Shown here in pieces: positions 3,986 to 41,668 of a DNA stretch of 64,000 bases (the stretch's first letter is position 1; each line of letters opens with the position of its first letter). A program made the position numbers and the translations under genes. The stretch is taken from contig NZ_ARWE01000001.1 in the NCBI RefSeq assembly GCF_000384395.1, positions 3,074,501-3,138,500 on the forward strand, in the 5' to 3' direction. Below the pieces are notes generated by a model that had not been told where the DNA came from, did not search any database, and saw only the letters and a list, made by a program, of their open reading frames with translations. The stretch comes from Geopsychrobacter electrodiphilus DSM 16401. Lineage in GTDB: Bacteria > Desulfobacterota > Desulfuromonadia > Desulfuromonadales > Geopsychrobacteraceae.

Positions 3986-4061
3986 GGGGCTGTAGCTCAG
4001 TTGGGAGAGCGACGCGTTCGCAACGCGTAGGTCAGGGGATCGTACCCCCTCAGCTCCACCA
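3986..4061 (+). tRNA. tRNA-Ala (anticodon CGC), island insertion site
   Basis: Folds as a complete tRNA: acceptor GGGGCTG/CAGCTCC with the G3:U70 alanine identity pair, D stem GCTC/GAGC, anticodon stem ACGCG/CGCGT with loop TTCGCAA (anticodon CGC at 4019-4021), T stem AGGGG/CCCCT and an encoded CCA. The T loop reads ATCGTAC instead of the usual TTCGAxx, so positions 54 and 58 are swapped (A54, T58). From 4012 on, the 3' half is duplicated at 41602. The unusual T arm may have been brought in by the integrating element. Confidence 0.93.
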
Positions 4062-4078
4062 TAAAATCAAGGGGTTAG
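4012..4078 (+). repeat. attL (left att copy inside tRNA-Ala)
   Basis: Contains the 22-bp block shared with 41602-41623 (anticodon arm and variable region) and the 28-bp block shared with 41641-41668 (acceptor 3' strand, CCA, start of terminator). The 17 bases between (4034-4050, the T arm) match at only 9 positions, yet both versions form a T stem. Confidence 0.9.
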
Positions 4079-4104: not shown

Positions 4105-4124
4105 CAGTTACTATGCAGTTACTA
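4105..4124 (+). promoter_or_regulatory. Direct repeats, possible integrase arm-type sites (left)
   Basis: CAGTTACTA occurs at 4105-4113 and 4116-4124, 11 bases apart, about one helical turn, overlapping the integrase stop codon. A similar AGTGAC pair with the same spacing lies near the right end at 41481-41498. Role as arm sites is inference. Confidence 0.4.
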
Positions 4125-5432
4125 CTTTTTTGAGACCAGATTCTCATCAATGTTCTGCCTACGCGATTCGACAAGAAGTTCAAACGCTTTATCCGCAGCC
4201 TTCCCTTTGCGACGGTGCACATACCGCTGGAGGCTCCGGACATCTTTATGCCGCGAGATCACCATCAGAGTTGAGTCGCTCACTTCGGTTTCAGCAACTT
4301 CGGTCAGGAGATTGTGACGAAGGTCATGTGGCCTCAGGTCGCCATCATCAAAAATAAGTCCAGCTTTTCTGGCCGCTTTTCGAAATGCAGAACCTAGGCT
4401 CTTCCAGCGCGTCCCGCTAAAAGGGTTGTAAAACACGTATTCGCACACCTTCGGCTGAGCATTAATAATTGCCCAGGCCATTGGCGATAGAAAAAGAGTT
4501 TCGACGTCCCCATCTGCTTTGCTCGTCTTTGTGTCCTTAAGTTTGGCAATTTTTTTCATTCCCTCTACACGCTTCCAGGTCAGCGTCATCGCTTCAGTTA
4601 TCCTGCACCCTGACTCATAAACAAATTCAAAAAATGGCTTCGTGGCTGGAGAAAAAAAACTGAACAATTTCATTCGATCTTCTTCGGAAATTATATGATC
4701 AACCTCCCGGGACCCCGGCAAACCGTACTCGTAAAACGGATGGTCCATGGGCTGGCCATAGTAGACGTATTTATTTTCCCATGCAAAATTGATGATTTGA
4801 CGCATTACTGAAAGTTCACGGCCAACGGTCGATGCTGCTATTTTTCGAGGCTTTTTTACTCGCTTGAAAAGAGTTCCATTTTTCGTGACCTCGGTTTTCC
4901 CGGCTAAGACCGTCTGAGTCTCCCTGTGGGTCCGGTAAGCCATAAGATCTTTCTTGAAAATTCCCCCTATGGGTTTGTTGCCATAAAATTGGATCAAATG
5001 ATCGACGATAGTCTTTTCACGCTTGATATCCTTGATTTCAGTCGAATGTAAACGATGGAACTCGACAGCGATTTCATCGAAAGGGGTGCTTCCGTCAGTC
5101 TGATTGTCACGTCTGACGTCTGCCCTATCTGATAAATGCTGGGCTGGCGGGTCGATATTAAGTTCCGGGTAAAGTTTCTGTAACTTTTTTTCTAATTCAA
5201 TTTTCGCAAGAACAGTTCGGGCCTCTATCTCGGTTTCAAAGGTTTTTGTCGTTTTTCCTGAATTTTTCATTTTGTACCATTGTATTGTGAACTTAGTGGA
5301 CACAACCAACTCCCCACCACATTTGGGACAGTTAGCAACTGCTTTTGAGGGACTTTTCTTTTTTTTAAGTGGTGATGTAAGCCAAATGTTGCAACCAGGG
5401 GTCTTGCATACTGCCTTGTGAAAAATTGACAT
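4122..5432 (-). CDS. int: Tyrosine recombinase / integrase of the island
   Basis: Encodes 436 residues from the ATG at 5432, chosen because GGAGGAAAGAATC precedes it; a longer frame to 5504 lacks such a site. The N-terminus has a zinc-ribbon-like C-x4-C...C-x2-C pattern (CKTPGC, CPKCGG), followed by a SAM-like core-binding region and the catalytic domain with R in SGCRITEAMTL, the H-x-x-R box HDLRH, H/R in SRHKDV and the tyrosine in RSLQRYVH. It should recombine tRNA-Ala with the circular element. Position next to the tRNA, reading toward it, is typical for such integrases. Confidence 0.93.
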   Translation of the reverse strand: MSIFHKAVCKTPGCNIWLTSPLKKKKSPSKAVANCPKCGGELVVSTKFTIQWYKMKNSGKTTKTFETEIEARTVLAKIELEKKLQKLYPELNIDPPAQHLSDRADVRRDNQTDGSTPFDEIAVEFHRLHSTEIKDIKREKTIVDHLIQFYGNKPIGGIFKKDLMAYRTHRETQTVLAGKTEVTKNGTLFKRVKKPRKIAASTVGRELSVMRQIINFAWENKYVYYGQPMDHPFYEYGLPGSREVDHIISEEDRMKLFSFFSPATKPFFEFVYESGCRITEAMTLTWKRVEGMKKIAKLKDTKTSKADGDVETLFLSPMAWAIINAQPKVCEYVFYNPFSGTRWKSLGSAFRKAARKAGLIFDDGDLRPHDLRHNLLTEVAETEVSDSTLMVISRHKDVRSLQRYVHRRKGKAADKAFELLVESRRQNIDENLVSKK

Positions 5433-5528
5433 GATTCTTTCCTCCGGAAAATGAGTAATGCGCCTAATGACGCTCCTGTTCATCTTCAGCACGTTGCATG
5501 CCAATTCGTAATGATTACAATAGGTTAG

Positions 5529-34678: not shown

Positions 34679-36433
34679 ATGCTTAAAGTAAAATTCGTAG
34701 GTGCGGTTGAGGGCGTTTCTGGTTCATGTACCTGGCTACATCACACCGATTCGGACACTCAGTTTCTAGTCGACTGCGGTATGAACCAGGGAAGCACTCT
34801 TGATGCATGGAAAAACAATCAGCCCTTCCCGTTCAACCCGTCGCAGATAAAGTATGTACTGCTGACACATGCCCACATTGATCACTGCGGATTAATACCT
34901 AAACTCGTGAAAGAAAACTTTTGCGGCGTGATTTATGCGACACGTGCCACCCGCGAGTTGACAGAAATCATGCTACGCGACTCAGCAAAGGTCAACGGGA
35001 CACCCAATCACATTAAACTCATCGAATCAATCAACTGGAGCATTCTCGACGATGACCTTGGATTTAAATGGGGACGAGTCATCAGAATGGCAGAAGGGCT
35101 TCGATTCTCGTTCCTAAGAAGCAGCCACATATTGGGCGCATGCTGTATCTCTGTTTCCTGGATGGTAAAAGATGCTGAGGAGAACTTTGACAAGGAGAGC
35201 GAAAAAAATATTTTCTTCAGCGGAGATATTGGTTCTCAAAGTGACGAGAACCCTTACCTTCCCCTGATGAAGGCAGGGCATAACCCTTTCCCAAATACCA
35301 ACTTCATTGTGACCGAAGCAACGTACGGCAGCAGAATAAGGTCAACAGAAATTCAGTGTGCAGAAACACGAAGGAAACGACTAGCCGACACAATCCTTCA
35401 TACCGTCTACAACAAGAAAGGGAAAGTTATCCTCCCTGCTTTTTCTTTACACCGTACCCAAGAGCTTCTGGCGGATCTTCATTGGTGGCTATCCGAGGGA
35501 TGGGCAAGTTCTGACCAAGCTGATCTTATGGGGAAATTGGTAGATGGGAAATACGAGAACCCTCTTAGGATCTGCGTTGACTCACCCCTTGGATATAAGG
35601 TGACAGAAGCATACAAAAACAACTTATTTCAGCGTTCTCCAAACGGGAAGTACAAGTATTTAAAAGATCCTCCTTCCGATGACTCATGCTCAAAATTTGA
35701 GAGCTTTATGAATGATTTATTTGAGGCTCAGGGCAGTTTTTATAATTGCGGTAATCTTATAAAACTCTTCAATCCTGAATCTAAACAAAAGCCAAAAAAT
35801 GTTTGCAATAAGCAGAAAAAGCAAATCAATAAATCGGAACGAAAATTTGAGGTATACCCTGTTATCGTGGCAAGCGCGGGGATGTGTGGTGCCGGCCCCG
35901 TTGCAGAGTATCTTGAACGGTTTGGCAACGATCCAGCGAATACCATCATTCTCACAGGCTATCAATCGGCAGGCACACCTGGCAGATTTTTAATGGAAAG
36001 AGCGACAATACAATGTTCTGACCCTGAGAGGTTACCTGAGGGCAAAGCTGAAGTCATAGACATGTCAGGATTTTATTCTGCCCATGCAGATCAAAATATG
36101 CTGCTGGATTCTCTTTTTTCCCTTGGTGGTTACAAACAAAGCACACCAGCAAAGGTGCTTATCAATCATGGTGATGTGGAAAGCAAAAAGAGTTTGGAAG
36201 AGGCCATTCGAAAAAGGATTGCGCTAAAGATACCAAATGAGCGGGTTGTAAATGATGTCAACATCGCTGATGCTCGATGGATTGATCTAAACAGTGATGA
36301 ATATCTACCAGAGATTCCCGTCAGTGATGCATCAAGTGCAGAGGAGATAAAACTGAACATGGTAGAAATAAAATCTGAAATGAGGGAACTTCAAAAAATG
36401 TTGGCCCAATTGCTGGAAAGAATCGCCGCCTGA
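34679..36433 (+). CDS. Metallo-beta-lactamase/beta-CASP RNA nuclease-like protein
   Basis: A 584-residue protein of the CPSF/RNase J type. Metal site HAHIDHCG at about 63-70, further ligand in SSHILGA (about 144), the aspartate in FFSGDIG, then the beta-CASP cap with SPLGYKVTE, the motif near VIVASAGMCGAGPV (about 396), the YSAHADQN histidine (about 465) and LINHGD (about 494). Family members cut or trim RNA. AAAGGGG precedes the start. The paired upstream HTH gene and the island setting suggest a defence or regulatory RNase rather than housekeeping processing. A short coiled coil closes the C-terminus. Confidence 0.9.
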   Translation: MLKVKFVGAVEGVSGSCTWLHHTDSDTQFLVDCGMNQGSTLDAWKNNQPFPFNPSQIKYVLLTHAHIDHCGLIPKLVKENFCGVIYATRATRELTEIMLRDSAKVNGTPNHIKLIESINWSILDDDLGFKWGRVIRMAEGLRFSFLRSSHILGACCISVSWMVKDAEENFDKESEKNIFFSGDIGSQSDENPYLPLMKAGHNPFPNTNFIVTEATYGSRIRSTEIQCAETRRKRLADTILHTVYNKKGKVILPAFSLHRTQELLADLHWWLSEGWASSDQADLMGKLVDGKYENPLRICVDSPLGYKVTEAYKNNLFQRSPNGKYKYLKDPPSDDSCSKFESFMNDLFEAQGSFYNCGNLIKLFNPESKQKPKNVCNKQKKQINKSERKFEVYPVIVASAGMCGAGPVAEYLERFGNDPANTIILTGYQSAGTPGRFLMERATIQCSDPERLPEGKAEVIDMSGFYSAHADQNMLLDSLFSLGGYKQSTPAKVLINHGDVESKKSLEEAIRKRIALKIPNERVVNDVNIADARWIDLNSDEYLPEIPVSDASSAEEIKLNMVEIKSEMRELQKMLAQLLERIAA

Positions 36434-36703: not shown

Positions 36704-36907
36704 TTACCCTAGCATTTTAGTCCTACTTAGTTCTGCGATTTTTGCACAGCGAGTTCTTTCCTCGGCAAGGTAAGAAGAAGATTCATTTTTTAATTCCTCC
36801 CTTACAGTAGAAAGTCCATTATTCCAAGCATCCTGACGCTGATCATTGACCTTTTCAAACTTCCCAAGAATACCTTCTTCGTGACCTAATCTCTCCAACA
36901 AAGTCAT
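36704..36907 (-). CDS. Small helical hypothetical protein coupled to peptidase gene
   Basis: Sixty-seven residues, highly charged and helical (TLLERLGHEEGILGKFEK at the start). Its ATG overlaps the stop of the peptidase-like gene (ATGA), and GAGGAGGC lies upstream, so it is likely translated from the same message. It could be an inhibitor, substrate or partner of that peptidase; unrecognised. Confidence 0.6.
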   Translation of the reverse strand: MTLLERLGHEEGILGKFEKVNDQRQDAWNNGLSTVREELKNESSSYLAEERTRCAKIAELSRTKMLG

Positions 36908-38313
36908 TGAAGCCTCCTCAGATTATTTTTATACATTGGTTCTACCTGCTCCTTTAGCTTAATGGCTGGTCCAGTAATTCCATCACCATGCGGATTAACG
37001 CTGACCTCTGAACCACTTTTTAAACTTATGAAGTTGCCCTCGTAATGTTTAAGCATTGTCGCATCAAAAATAATTCTATTGCTTACCAGGCATTTTTTAT
37101 ATTCATCAATTGTTGAATATTCTGCCACCCAAATGAATTTGGGCATTTGCAAATGAGTGTGGATCTCTCTATAAATATCATCTTTAGAGTATACATTTAC
37201 GGACTTTTTAAATGACCTGCTGGAAGTTATAAAAACTCTCCTAACTAATGTTTTGCCTTCTTCAAGGTTCAGAAGATTTTTCTCAAGGGAGGGTAAAAGT
37301 CTATCATATAAAAAGTCCACATCCAGATACATTTTTTGGTAGAAAGGGACAACTAATACATCAATATCTTCAAGCTTGATGTATCCATCATTCTCATAGT
37401 TATAAGCCTTCCTGTATGGAAGATGGTTGTCGTCGGACAGAATAACGCTTTCAACAAGGTCACAACTATCTACAACTCCTTGCCCCTCACTAAAAACAGA
37501 GTCAATATCTGATAACTCACCATGCCCAACAATTGCCACAGCATGCTTTTTTTCTCTCAATCCAGCGATGTATGGGATTCCTGATTCAATAAAAGTGTAA
37601 ATCAACCTATTAAATTCTTCGGGTTTATATATAGCATCCTCAGAAGAAATTTCACGAACATATACTTCAGGGTCAAATCTGTTTTTTTGTAAAATCTGGG
37701 CAATCTGTTCTATCGTCGCTCCCCTAGAGGGGATTCTCCGTGTTGGACTGTCGTGAACAGTAATTTCGTGTAGAGTTTTTTCTGGATAAAATGGGTATTT
37801 TTGACTGAAGTATCTAACCACGCTCCAAGCAGCGATATGGGCACAAATTGAAACATTGCCATCTTGCTGCATCCACGGAAAGGCCCAAACTGTTAGTTCA
37901 TTTCCTTTGAACAATACGGAATATTCTGCAAGGCAATAATAGCCTCCGCTGAAGTCTTTCAGCGCTTTTGGACAGAGATATGATCTACCTATCGTATATA
38001 CTTTTGTATCTCTTAGAGTTAGGAAACCGGCATAGTTATTTTGTGAAGAATTGTCCTTATCGTAAAAAAGATGAAGCCTTACAGAGTCCCTAGATATCTT
38101 TTCAAACCTTTTAGAAAAATCATTATAGTAAGTATCTCTGAAGTCCTTATCTACATATGGATATTCTAAAATTATTTCATTTATTTCGTTTGATATGTGT
38201 TTATCAAGTTCATCTCTGACGAAGTCAGGCATATAGCAACCAACGTCTGCCTGAATATCCGCGAAATTTCTTCGATAAGCTTTGTAATGTATCATCCCCA
38301 CCCCATTGAACAT
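36904..38313 (-). CDS. Papain-like cysteine peptidase-type protein
   Basis: A 469-residue protein (or 463 from the ATG at 38295; neither start has a good ribosome site). The central part has a C39/papain-like signature: glutamine then cysteine in MQQDGNVSICAHIAAW (about 157-172) and histidine in KKHAVAIVGHG (about 261-271). The flanking N- and C-terminal parts are unrecognised. It may process a peptide or act on the ubiquitin-like products of the divergent cassette; that link is inference from neighbourhood. It follows an XRE regulator, and a perfect 20-bp palindrome sits at its start. Confidence 0.65.
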   Translation of the reverse strand: MFNGVGMIHYKAYRRNFADIQADVGCYMPDFVRDELDKHISNEINEIILEYPYVDKDFRDTYYNDFSKRFEKISRDSVRLHLFYDKDNSSQNNYAGFLTLRDTKVYTIGRSYLCPKALKDFSGGYYCLAEYSVLFKGNELTVWAFPWMQQDGNVSICAHIAAWSVVRYFSQKYPFYPEKTLHEITVHDSPTRRIPSRGATIEQIAQILQKNRFDPEVYVREISSEDAIYKPEEFNRLIYTFIESGIPYIAGLREKKHAVAIVGHGELSDIDSVFSEGQGVVDSCDLVESVILSDDNHLPYRKAYNYENDGYIKLEDIDVLVVPFYQKMYLDVDFLYDRLLPSLEKNLLNLEEGKTLVRRVFITSSRSFKKSVNVYSKDDIYREIHTHLQMPKFIWVAEYSTIDEYKKCLVSNRIIFDATMLKHYEGNFISLKSGSEVSVNPHGDGITGPAIKLKEQVEPMYKNNLRRLQ

Positions 38314-38354: not shown

Positions 38355-38666
38355 TTATCTTGTTTTTAGAAAATGTATGTTTTGCAATATTTGCTGTCGG
38401 TTGTCAGGTGAAAGCTGCTTGAACTCTTGGAATGCATCTTTTATTTCATCGTCGACAAAAATAGCATCTTCTTCCCCAGAACCCAAAAGAAAATCGGTGG
38501 ATACGCCCAAGGCTTTTGCCAACTTCGTAAGCGTGTCAACCGAAGGTGCTTTAATATTTTTCTCTAAACGGTTAATAGCTGGAGGAGAGATACCAATGAT
38601 CTCGGCAAGTGCTTTTTGGCTAAGCTTCATCTCTAACCTTTTTGCTCTCATTCTCGTGCCGATCAT
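38355..38666 (-). CDS. XRE-family transcriptional regulator
   Basis: A 103-residue Cro/CI-type regulator. The N-terminal HTH is textbook: RMRAKRLEMKLSQKALAEI, then ISPPAINRLEKNIKAPS, ending VSTDFLLGSGEE (about 1-68). A short helical tail follows and probably dimerises. GGAGG lies 11 bases before the ATG. It heads a leftward operon with the peptidase-like and small genes and is divergent from the ubiquitin-like cassette, so it may control both directions. Confidence 0.92.
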   Translation of the reverse strand: MIGTRMRAKRLEMKLSQKALAEIIGISPPAINRLEKNIKAPSVDTLTKLAKALGVSTDFLLGSGEEDAIFVDDEIKDAFQEFKQLSPDNRQQILQNIHFLKTR

Positions 38667-38770: not shown

Positions 38771-38799
38771 TTGACAGAATAGTAACTGCTGGTTAATTT
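38771..38799 (+). promoter_or_regulatory. Sigma-70-type promoter of the ubiquitin-like cassette
   Basis: TTGACA (38771-38776), a 17-base spacer, then TAATTT (38794-38799). It lies 72 bp upstream of the Ub/E2 start codon in the divergent region controlled by the XRE gene. Confidence 0.65.
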
Positions 38800-38870: not shown

Positions 38871-39506
38871 ATGGAAAAGCTAAAAGGGAAAGACCACGAA
38901 ATTGTTTTTTTTATCGACAAAGAAAAGTTCAAAACTGACAAAATTGAGTTATCAGTTCGAGAAATCCTCCACGATTTTGCGAAAGAAGATCCCGATGAAA
39001 CGACCTTAGCGCTCAGAAAGGGCAACGATCGACAGAAATTTCCTGATCTAAATGTTTTGATTTCTTTGACCAACGGGATGAAATTCATCGTTTTTCACAA
39101 TGGGCCCACCACAGTCTCAAATGGGGATGTAACCTACGGCCCGGAAAGACTTCGTAAAGATTTGCTTGATCTGGGTCACTGTGTTGAGGAGGTGAAGTCC
39201 AATGGAATCACATATGTCGTGATACCTGGCTACGAAGTTGAAATGGGCAGATTTCAAGGGCATATAATCGATTTGGGGATACCTTCCACACCCGATTTTC
39301 CTCGCACTGCTGCCCCTTCAATCCACGTAAAAACAAATCCACAACTTCTCGATAAGAAAGACAGTATTCCAGGTGTAAGAAACATTACCGACAGCCCACT
39401 TGGACCAGAATGGCGTTACTGGAGCCGTAACTTTGGCTGGAACGGTACTGAGAAGTCCGCCCGGCGCCTCATGAATCAAATAAAAGGGGTTTTCGCAAAT
39501 GTTTAA
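38871..39506 (+). CDS. Ubiquitin-like domain fused to prokaryotic E2-like domain
   Basis: From the ATG at 38871 (AAAGGA seven bases upstream) it encodes 211 residues. Residues about 8-80 look like a beta-grasp multiubiquitin-type domain (HEIVFFIDKEKFKTDKIELS, then VREILHDFA). Residues about 95-211 look like the prokaryotic E2 family E (YVVIPGYEVEMGRFQGHIID, then LGIPSTPDFPRTAAPSIHV and WRYWSRNFGWNG). The only cysteine is in LGHC, outside the usual E2 active-site position, so transfer chemistry is unclear. It overlaps the E1/JAB gene by eight bases. Together they form a minimal ubiquitin-like pathway. Confidence 0.8.
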   Translation: MEKLKGKDHEIVFFIDKEKFKTDKIELSVREILHDFAKEDPDETTLALRKGNDRQKFPDLNVLISLTNGMKFIVFHNGPTTVSNGDVTYGPERLRKDLLDLGHCVEEVKSNGITYVVIPGYEVEMGRFQGHIIDLGIPSTPDFPRTAAPSIHVKTNPQLLDKKDSIPGVRNITDSPLGPEWRYWSRNFGWNGTEKSARRLMNQIKGVFANV

Positions 39507-40947
39507 TCATGAAACTTCAGTGGCCATGGCCGAGAGGACACATGTCCATCTCTCTAATTTTCTTATCCGCGCAGATCTTCAGGAGGATCTGGTTTTTGCT
39601 TTATGGACACCTTCTAGAGGGGGGAAGAGGTTTACAGCTCTTCTTCATACTCTTGTCCTTCCAGGCGAAGGGGATCGGCAAATCCATGGCAATGCCAGCT
39701 TCAATCCAAACTACTTTGAACGGATCTGTACCCTTGCCGTAGAAAAGAAATGCGGGATTGCCTTTCTGCACAGTCACCCAGCGACTGGTTGGCAGGGCAT
39801 GAGCCATGATGACATTGTTGCTGAAAACAAAATGGCAAGTGCTGTCGATGCGATTACCAATCTCCCACTGGTCGGAATGACTGTCGGATCTGATGGCATA
39901 TGGAGTGCACGCATGTGGAAACAGGTTGAAGGTCGCAAGTACCAGGGGAACTGGTGCCATTCCGTACGAACCGTCGGCCAAGGCCTCAAAGCAGATTTTA
40001 ACGACTCACTTGTGCCGAAACCGGAATATAGCGAGTTATTTAAAAGGACTGTGACCGTCTGGGGCAAGGAAAACCATGCCAACCTCGCTCGGCTTAGAGT
40101 CGGAATCGTCGGCCTTGGCAGTGTGGGAAGCATTGTCGCAGAAACCCTTGCTCGCATGGGAGCAGAACGCTTTAGCTTGATTGACTTTGACGAGATCCAG
40201 GGACACAATTTAGATAGACTTCTAGGAGCAACAGCAACCGATCTCGGTAAGAAGAAAGTTTCTATCGCCCAACGCCAAATTAAGCGATCGTCTACTGCCA
40301 GTCGTGTGGAAATCCTGTCTGTGTCCTGTAGTCTAGCAGAAGAAGAAGGCTACCGCGCTGCCCTGGATTGCGATGTTCTTTTCAGTTGCGTTGATCGTCC
40401 CCGAGCACGTCACATTCTCAACCATATGGCATACAGCCACCTAATTCCAGTTATAGATGGCGGGATAGAGGTGCGCTTTAAGAATGGAGTGTTCAGCGGC
40501 GTCGACTGGCAGCTCCAAACGGTAGCCCCTGGTCGCCCTTGCATGGAATGCCTTGGAACCTACAATCCTTCTGATGTGGCATTAGAGCAAAGCGGCCAAC
40601 TTGATGACCCTAGCTATATGAAAGGTTTGGGGGAAAACCACCGGCTCAAAAACAATGAAAATGTTTTTCCCTTCAGTGCGAATCTAGCATCACTGGAAGT
40701 TCTTCAGTTTGTCGCGTTAGTAACAGGCGCTGGAGGGATTCACAACTTCGGAGTCCAGCGGTATAGGTATTGGCCTGGTATCGTCGAAGCTGACGAAGGA
40801 AGAACCTGTAGGCCCGAATGTGACTGTATCGAGCTGGAAGGGCAAGGGGACCGGTATTTTCAACTTTTTGGAAGGGATTTGGGGGCAGAAATTGCCCGCA
40901 AAAGACAGGAGCAGCCAATAGAATGTGCCTGCATGGAAAATGTGTAA
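39499..40947 (+). CDS. JAB/MPN protease fused to ThiF/E1-like activating enzyme
   Basis: A 482-residue fusion. The N-terminal JAB domain (about 1-150) has HSHPATGWQGMSHDD, the H-x-H-x7-S-x2-D metalloprotease site of deubiquitinases. The C-terminal E1-like domain (about 195-450) has the nucleotide-binding GIVGLGSVGSIVAETLARMG, LIDFDEIQGHNLDR, and zinc cysteines in RPCMEC and CRPECDC. One chain could therefore both activate and trim a ubiquitin-like modifier. Order JAB then E1 with an E2 partner matches known bacterial ubiquitin-like operons in principle. AAAAGGGG precedes the start. Confidence 0.92.
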   Translation: MFNHETSVAMAERTHVHLSNFLIRADLQEDLVFALWTPSRGGKRFTALLHTLVLPGEGDRQIHGNASFNPNYFERICTLAVEKKCGIAFLHSHPATGWQGMSHDDIVAENKMASAVDAITNLPLVGMTVGSDGIWSARMWKQVEGRKYQGNWCHSVRTVGQGLKADFNDSLVPKPEYSELFKRTVTVWGKENHANLARLRVGIVGLGSVGSIVAETLARMGAERFSLIDFDEIQGHNLDRLLGATATDLGKKKVSIAQRQIKRSSTASRVEILSVSCSLAEEEGYRAALDCDVLFSCVDRPRARHILNHMAYSHLIPVIDGGIEVRFKNGVFSGVDWQLQTVAPGRPCMECLGTYNPSDVALEQSGQLDDPSYMKGLGENHRLKNNENVFPFSANLASLEVLQFVALVTGAGGIHNFGVQRYRYWPGIVEADEGRTCRPECDCIELEGQGDRYFQLFGRDLGAEIARKRQEQPIECACMENV

Positions 40948-41601: not shown

Positions 41602-41668
41602 ACGCGTTCGCAACGCGTAGGTCGAGAGTTCGATCCTCTTCAGCTCCACCATAAAATCAAGGGGTTAG
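41602..41668 (+). repeat. attR: duplicated 3' half of tRNA-Ala
   Basis: Repeats the anticodon arm, T arm, acceptor 3' strand and CCA of the tRNA (to 41651) plus the start of its terminator. The T arm here is GAGAG-TTCGATC-CTCTT with a canonical loop, unlike the one in the intact tRNA. No 5' half is present, so it is not functional. It is probably the original host 3' end displaced by integration. Confidence 0.9.

Follow-up and report, generated by a model that had tools for sequence, protein, structure and literature searches.

A divergent Bub-like cassette with an E2-fused ubiquitin-like domain on a putative defense island of Geopsychrobacter electrodiphilus

The two genes and their domains

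We analyzed a window of 64,000 nucleotides (nt) from Geopsychrobacter electrodiphilus DSM 16401 (contig NZ_ARWE01000001.1, positions 3,074,501-3,138,500, forward strand) and, within it, a small cassette of two genes (Table 1). The upstream gene encodes a 211-residue protein in which a ubiquitin-like (Ubl) domain is joined to an E2-like domain, resembling BubA and BubB; the downstream gene encodes a 482-residue fusion of a JAB and an E1 domain, resembling BubCD. An earlier reading made from the letters alone, hereafter the sequence-only reading, had described a minimal ubiquitin-like cassette built from two fusions that overlap by eight bases. Both points hold. The open reading frames (ORFs) overlap by exactly eight bases, and the identical overlap joins the E2 and E1 genes of both nearest relatives, L002 (Geotalea toluenoxydans, 71% identity) and L003 (a Geobacter metagenome-assembled genome, 70%). 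Judged by its predicted domains, the cassette is a Bub (bacterial ubiquitination-like) operon of type 6e architecture, mostly of known kind.

In the downstream protein the JAB domain is fused N-terminal to the E1-like domain, as in Bub and type 6e systems. This fusion, already recognized by the sequence-only reading, is confirmed by a ThiF match (PF00899, E = 9.1e-32) and by a complete set of JAMM residues in the JAB half, which the Pfam Prok-JAB model does not call. Conservation was counted over 24 rows, namely the window, L002, L003, 18 plasmid loci, L049, L050 and L052. The plasmid search had matched 154 records, 25 of them chosen by hand for reading; L079-L085 lie outside the tree and the conservation counts, and L004 (whose Ubl and E2 could not be read), L051 and L078 enter no count. 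His91, His93, Ser102 and Asp105 occur in every row and Glu29 in 23; a simple JAMM pattern gave no match in L084. The adenylation residues Gly205, Gly210, Asp229, Asp231, Asn237, Arg240, Lys253 and Asp299 are likewise present in all 24 rows, and Gly207 in 22. The window has no cysteine between Cys351 and Cys437, corresponding to the region within which ThiF-type enzymes keep their E1 cysteine, and no column of the E1 region has a cysteine in more than three of the 24 rows. Among solved structures, the best match of the whole protein is Citrobacter BubCD (E = 2.7e-20), which a ten-row JAB-E1 profile with two classical rows included matches at E = 7.9e-62. The E1-E2 models of PADLOC match only the ThiF part, among the matches listed (25 of 33 families). 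A second Prok-JAB domain, recognized by Pfam, lies in a 701-residue open frame of the same genome (C1:3941219-3941557).

The sequence-only reading had assigned the second half of the upstream protein to E2 family E, and alignment agrees. PF14462 (Prok-E2_E) matches fusion residues 98-191 at E = 5.7e-5 and 23.3 bits, just under the curated cut-off of 25, as it also does in L003 (24.4 bits) and L002 (23.5 bits). Profile alignment (hhalign) of the E2 parts of the window, L002 and L003 with seven classical family-E proteins gives a probability of 95% (E = 3.6e-8), and a nine-row E2 profile, two classical rows included, finds Citrobacter BubB at E = 1.1e-13. Searches with the entire fusion returned nothing from the PDB (phmmer, E ≤ 1) and nothing from plasmids (tblastn, E ≤ 0.01).

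The claim that the E2 site has no cysteine, the sole cysteine of the protein lying before it, also survived alignment. That cysteine is residue 104, which is not conserved in L002 and L003, and across the 24 rows neither the window nor these two relatives has a cysteine near the site. By contrast, seven of nine actinobacterial E2-like rows have a cysteine a few residues before a W-x-x-H-S-R stretch, so these relatives may differ from the window's group; the cysteine was noted at L036, L038 and L057-L061. Ser185, which lies in the equivalent W-x-x-W/H-S-R stretch, is kept in 23 of the 24 E2-like rows. Relative to classical E2s, its place is presumably a few residues ahead of the tryptophan found after their catalytic cysteine.

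Expression signals are less clear than first described. The sequence-only reading placed the cassette under a consensus promoter, a description that is too strong because the perfect TTGACA has no good -10 element behind it; the best candidate at a spacing of 16-18 nt matches three of six positions. A promoter scan begun at 38600 gave no hit ahead of the Ubl-E2 gene. Within that gene, TTG98 and GTG108 are in frame and might conceivably serve as starts for a truncated E2.

Table 1. Features of the cassette and its island, in window coordinates
Feature	Position	Strand	Basis
tRNA-Ala side of direct repeat	4012..4078	+	tRNA-Ala at 3986-4061
Tyrosine integrase adjoining the tRNA	4122..5504	-	PF00589, E = 1.6e-17
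Divergent XRE-type regulator, CapH-like	38355..38666	-	PADLOC capH, 59.3 bits, E = 1.6e-16
TTGACA without good -10 behind	38771..38776	+	motif search
Ubl-E2 fusion gene, BubA-BubB like	38871..39506	+	ORF, 211 residues; PF14462 just under cut-off
Ubl domain, residues 1-83	38871..39119	+	alignment; C-terminal ends of relatives; Ubl model with VIA-align (residues 11-83 on BubA 161-229)
15-nt junction, in place of the L002 stop, GAGGTG and E2 start	39120..39134	+	sequence comparison
E2-like (Prok-E2_E) domain without catalytic cysteine	39135..39503	+	Pfam, 24-row alignment, hhalign
Cys104, only cysteine of the fusion	39180..39182	+	at start of E2-like domain; not conserved in L002, L003
Ser185 in W-x-x-W/H-S-R stretch	39423..39425	+	kept in 23 of 24 E2-like rows
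Eight-base overlap of Ubl-E2 and JAB-E1 genes	39499..39506	+	ORF list, sequence
JAB-E1 fusion gene, BubCD like	39499..40947	+	482 residues; PF00899; best PDB match Citrobacter BubCD
JAMM motif (Glu29, His91, His93, Ser102, Asp105)	39583..39813	+	24-row alignment
E1/ThiF adenylation domain	40045..40731	+	PF00899; no cysteine between Cys351 and Cys437
Far direct-repeat copy, 0.65 kb past the cassette	41602..41668	+	29 nt and 22 nt exact at same offset; alignment

The end of the Ubl domain and the junction behind it

The Ubl domain was said to be internal and thus to lack a free C-terminal glycine, and this is what we find. Residues 80-83 (TTVS) match the natural C-terminus of the separately encoded Ubl in L002 and L003; at this place the window keeps PTTVS, with neither a glycine end nor a Thr-Glu-Gly motif. 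Pfam does not call the Ubl part of the fusion, and among the Ubls of the branch it calls L036 clearly, L056 and L057 weakly, and L039 and L002 not at all. Structure prediction of the fusion, a check proposed with the sequence-only reading, succeeded in part: a model of the Ubl alone is usable (predicted local distance difference test, pLDDT, 68.4; below 50 for residues 80-83), and that of the whole fusion is poor. The six best VIA-align matches of the Ubl model are all multi-ubiquitin or Bub chains (8u38, 9d5b, 9cd2, 9ea8, 9d59 and 9d5a), which favors the proposed Ubl fold, with modest Z scores of 6.4 to 5.2, the next rows starting at 4.5. These scores come from Foldseek's own 1000 chains, and a Z below 8 may mean only a common arrangement. 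Foldseek itself gave no match at E ≤ 0.001 with either model, the best rows for the Ubl lying near E = 1. The Ubl model superposes BubA 161-229 on fusion residues 11-83, and BubA(155-229), the solved construct, has its final residue opposite residue 83, within the model's low-pLDDT end. By hhalign, the Ubl profile matches actinobacterial Ubls with a probability of 57.7% (E = 1e-4) and does not match the Oscillatoria multi-ubiquitin protein (L040).

How the Ubl ends appears to distinguish the window's branch. In all 11 of its bacterial Ubls that have a gene of their own, the last two residues are Val-Ser (two) or Val-Ala (nine); the independent cases of the Val-Ala end are fewer, because several of those nine are close kin. 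Seven haloarchaeal proteins, considered Ubls because of their position, all end in a residue other than glycine, and some have a glycine near the end. The Thr-Glu-Gly motif is present in nine of the 11 classical loci with a readable Ubl (L050 and L064 being without it), an observation from the loci studied here and not a published criterion. Separate Ubls of classical operons (L040, L049, L065, L067 and L085) end in TEG or at most 10 residues past it. A small upstream ORF of L052 matches WYL and was dropped from this count, the locus being kept in the tree.

Both L002 and L003 encode Ubl and E2 as separate genes. Their Ubl ends in PTTVS or PTPVS and is followed by a TGA stop and then by a Shine-Dalgarno-like GAGGTG, with the E2 start codon 9 nt (L002) or 8 nt (L003) past the stop. 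The stretch between the final Ubl codon and the codon that follows the E2 start measures 15 nt in L002, so that E2 stays in the Ubl frame, and 14 nt in L003. The window also has 15 nt here, with no stop, no GAGGTG and an open frame, and it differs from L002 at nine of the 15 places. Because E2 lies in the Ubl's own frame in such a Geotalea-like arrangement, stop loss alone would yield the fusion; at L002 5622-5636 a single TGA stands between the two genes, and read-through would give a fusion of the window type. For the Ubl and E2 parts, identity with L002 and L003 is 61-70%, compared with 62% between these two relatives. Differences between the window and its relatives fall mostly at third codon positions in all four domains, and silent sites are saturated. 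In classical Bub operons, four Ubl-E2 fusions (L041, L066, L083 and L084) carry TTEG at the Ubl/E2 junction. The L041 fusion lies beside an IS66 element, and those of L041 and L066 are shorter than those of L083 and L084.

The branch, the island and the neighboring genes

DUF6527 separates the loci in the same way as the E1 tree. In the 24-row tree, the 15 rows from records without DUF6527 lie on one side of a branch supported at 100/99; L052, L050, L063 and L064 form long branches in this tree, and L063 falls inside the window's group. DUF6527 was scored by its Pfam model, since a motif scan missed loci known to have it. The model found no DUF6527 in the window's own genome, in any of the 15 branch records (three genomes and 12 plasmids, for which the plasmid record and not the host chromosome was searched) or in four further haloarchaeal plasmids outside the tree. 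The same searches found it in five of five and four of four classical records, and also on proteins of L049, L050 and L052. We file the window as a divergent branch because DUF6527 is absent from its own genome. Beyond these loci, a partial Opitutus copy (L004) has an E1 without its first part, phage records held no relative of the JAB-E1 protein, and viral contigs held no branch member and one classical E2-like locus (L078).

Classical Bub operons with DUF6527 also occur in further genomes of the window's class (L049, L050 and L052). By eye, STAS/GHKL-like genes stand upstream in L050 and L052, recalling CapK and CapS. Also by eye, the same diaminopimelate-aminotransferase-like gene lies beside the cassette in L002 (7789-9021, minus strand) and L003 (7494-8744, minus strand), a hint of a common insertion site in Geobacteraceae.

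The 3′ part of the tRNA-Ala recurs beyond the cassette, which points to an island of 37.6 kb (4012-41668). G+C content is 46% over 4122-42500, compared with 53-54% outside. Its gene content includes a restriction-modification pair resembling type III, an SMC-like relative of Lamassu LmuB (E = 3e-29), UvrD-type helicases and a resolvase; the Bub-like cassette comes last, about 0.65 kb inside the far repeat. Among NCBIfam models, the divergent XRE-type regulator is closest to the RstR repressor family (66.2 bits, under the cut-off of 80). In L002, CapH-like and CapP-like genes stand ahead of the cassette.

Two further genes lie on the regulator's side of the cassette. One (34679-36433, plus strand) encodes a 584-residue beta-CASP protein of the metallo-beta-lactamase fold, whose closest NCBIfam models are type VII CRISPR Cas14 (208.8 bits, cut-off 800) and aCPSF1 (182.9 bits, cut-off 580). 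The other (36904-38313, minus strand), directly downstream of the CapH-like gene and on its strand, encodes a 469-residue protein of no recognized family with, by eye, possible papain-like Cys and His stretches. Neither was retained as a cassette member: of 270 other genomes belonging to the class, 12 have relatives of the 469-residue protein, and by eye neither gene is among the ORFs listed around the L002 and L003 cassettes.

Mechanism, alternatives and known systems

As a rule, ubiquitin-like modifiers are attached by their C-terminal glycine, by way of thioester steps. Our preferred reading, to which we give a probability of about 0.6, is that the window holds a divergent, DUF6527-free Bub operon on a mobile defense island, with a modifier that would be released by JAB and transferred without a thiol. 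Cleavage of the fusion by the JAB domain would fall after Val82-Ser83 and give the end that the relatives encode directly. Such release is supported by TTEG at the junctions of classical fusions and by PTTVS at the matching place in the window. The E1 would then adenylate the Ser83 carboxylate, and the Ubl could pass from the adenylate directly to a target amine or via an oxyester on a hydroxyl. The first candidate for that hydroxyl would be Ser185 of the E2-like domain, which would otherwise serve as a scaffold. Thiol-free transfer is proposed because neither E2 nor E1 offers a conserved thiol. Bub work by Ye et al. is said to report unusual chemistry, which we do not use as evidence. The JAB domain may also reverse the tag, and the CapH-like repressor may switch the cassette on under stress, for example DNA damage or phage attack. 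A broader proposition is that the whole branch dispenses with catalytic cysteines and with DUF6527 and uses a modifier ending in Ala or Ser, the window's precursor being E2-fused and JAB-released; this we put forward tentatively and with more doubt than belief.

Several points weigh against the preferred reading. We infer cleavage after Ser83 from sequence comparison, and the Ala/Ser end of the Ubls is read from stop codons. Ser185 may be structural. The whole-fusion model, built on five rows, has a pLDDT of 49.2, and below 50 in the E2 part. A three-sequence E2 profile (window, L002 and L003) reaches BubB only at E = 0.12, and hhalign against seven actinobacterial E2-like proteins gives a probability of 41.5% (E = 2.7e-4). 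A PADLOC scan of the neighbors recognized no CapP-like gene beside the window's CapH-like gene. PMC13373217, which names the Bub family and counts 544 operons, 219 of them with CapW or with CapH and CapP, states that phage protection by Bub operons is not shown.

The fusion might instead never be cut, the Ubl serving as a permanent docking module that tethers the E2-like part to E1, with no conjugation. This would suit the loss of the stop codon and ribosome site that L002 and L003 keep, the missing glycine end, and an E2 and E1 without catalytic cysteines. However, the JAB and adenylation motifs are complete, PTTVS is kept, and the identity of the window's Ubl and E2 to the relatives resembles that between the relatives themselves; we regard uncut docking as rather unlikely. 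An assembly error or a decaying copy is harder still to credit. The window is the only fused copy among three close complete cassettes, stop loss is enough to fuse the in-frame Geotalea genes, and the shortened E1 of L004 indicates that a cassette can decay. Yet the genome is one contig, the junction has diverged from that of L002, and the third-position bias extends over all four domains, though that history may predate the fusion. Moreover, no single substitution tried in 39108-39150 creates a stop directly after Ser83, and just one of 350 single-base insertions or deletions (70 places) gave a Ubl ending in -VS. Because single-base changes so rarely restore a separate Ubl end, a sequencing or reading error seems unlikely.

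A classical thioester cascade through an overlooked cysteine would find its support in the actinobacterial E2-like relatives, most of which have a cysteine before the W-x-x-H-S-R stretch. The window, L002 and L003 lack that cysteine, Cys104 is not conserved, and no column of the E1 region shares a cysteine across more than three of the 24 rows, making such a cascade highly improbable. Least credible to us is a sulfur carrier system of the ThiS/MoaD kind. The E1 is ThiF-like and the Ubl model does match ThiS (Z 4.4) and TtuB (Z 4.3), but multi-ubiquitin and Bub chains match it better, a glycine end is missing, and no sulfur or cofactor gene is found among the island genes scanned.

If the preferred reading of JAB release and thiol-free transfer is true, an Ala/Ser-ended branch would test how much of the glycine and thioester chemistry is needed. 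The system is small, comprising two proteins that can be made in E. coli. Its natural split and fused forms offer a clean test of JAB as a processing enzyme, a deconjugase, or both.

Among known systems, the Bil operon (BilABCD) similarly brings together a Ubl, an E1, an E2 and a JAB peptidase. It differs in BilB Cys138 and BilD Cys417, given in PMC11354881, whose counterparts are absent from the window's E2 and E1. The type 6e operons of Iyer, Burroughs and Aravind (2006), as set out in PMC1779556, have the same domain set: JAB fused ahead of E1, an E2/RWD-like domain devoid of the cysteine, and one to three Ubls, with the Ubl fused to the E2/RWD-like domain in some species. A metal-binding protein is also seen there, without being called universal, and is absent from the window. 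We infer from architecture that Bub is type 6e and that its metal-binding protein is DUF6527. The sequence-only reading had considered the compression and the missing E2 cysteine unusual, an impression that does not stand, since both belong to this 2006 description. Our literature search, which did not extend to Ye et al. 2026 and Gong et al. 2025, found no account of a DUF6527-free Val-Ala/Ser branch, and DUF6527 is unmentioned among the matches listed (25 of 78).

Citrobacter Bub (BubA, BubB and BubCD; PDB 9ea4, 9ea5, 9ea8, 9eae and 9eav) shares with the window a JAB-E1 fusion, a BubB-like E2 and perhaps a Ubl of the multi-ubiquitin type. This likeness is drawn from the proteins, and the window differs in having a single, E2-fused Ubl. 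In CBASS (cyclic-oligonucleotide-based antiphage signaling system) type II, or 6A, E2 and E1 are parts of one protein, whereas the window's E1 is fused to JAB and not to E2. The double fusion is not confined to the window: L083 (Rhizobium sp. CIAT894) and L084 (Methylomagnum ishizawai) have the same order of a Ubl-E2 fusion, in these loci of 284 and 310 residues with Multi_ubiq and Prok-E2_E, followed by a JAB-E1 fusion. They differ from the window in having two Multi_ubiq stretches, the TTEG junction and an adjacent DUF6527 as third gene. Absence of the E2 cysteine and the double fusion are thus known family traits; it is the DUF6527-free branch with its Val-Ala/Ser Ubl end, together with its fusion in the window, that looks like a new variant.

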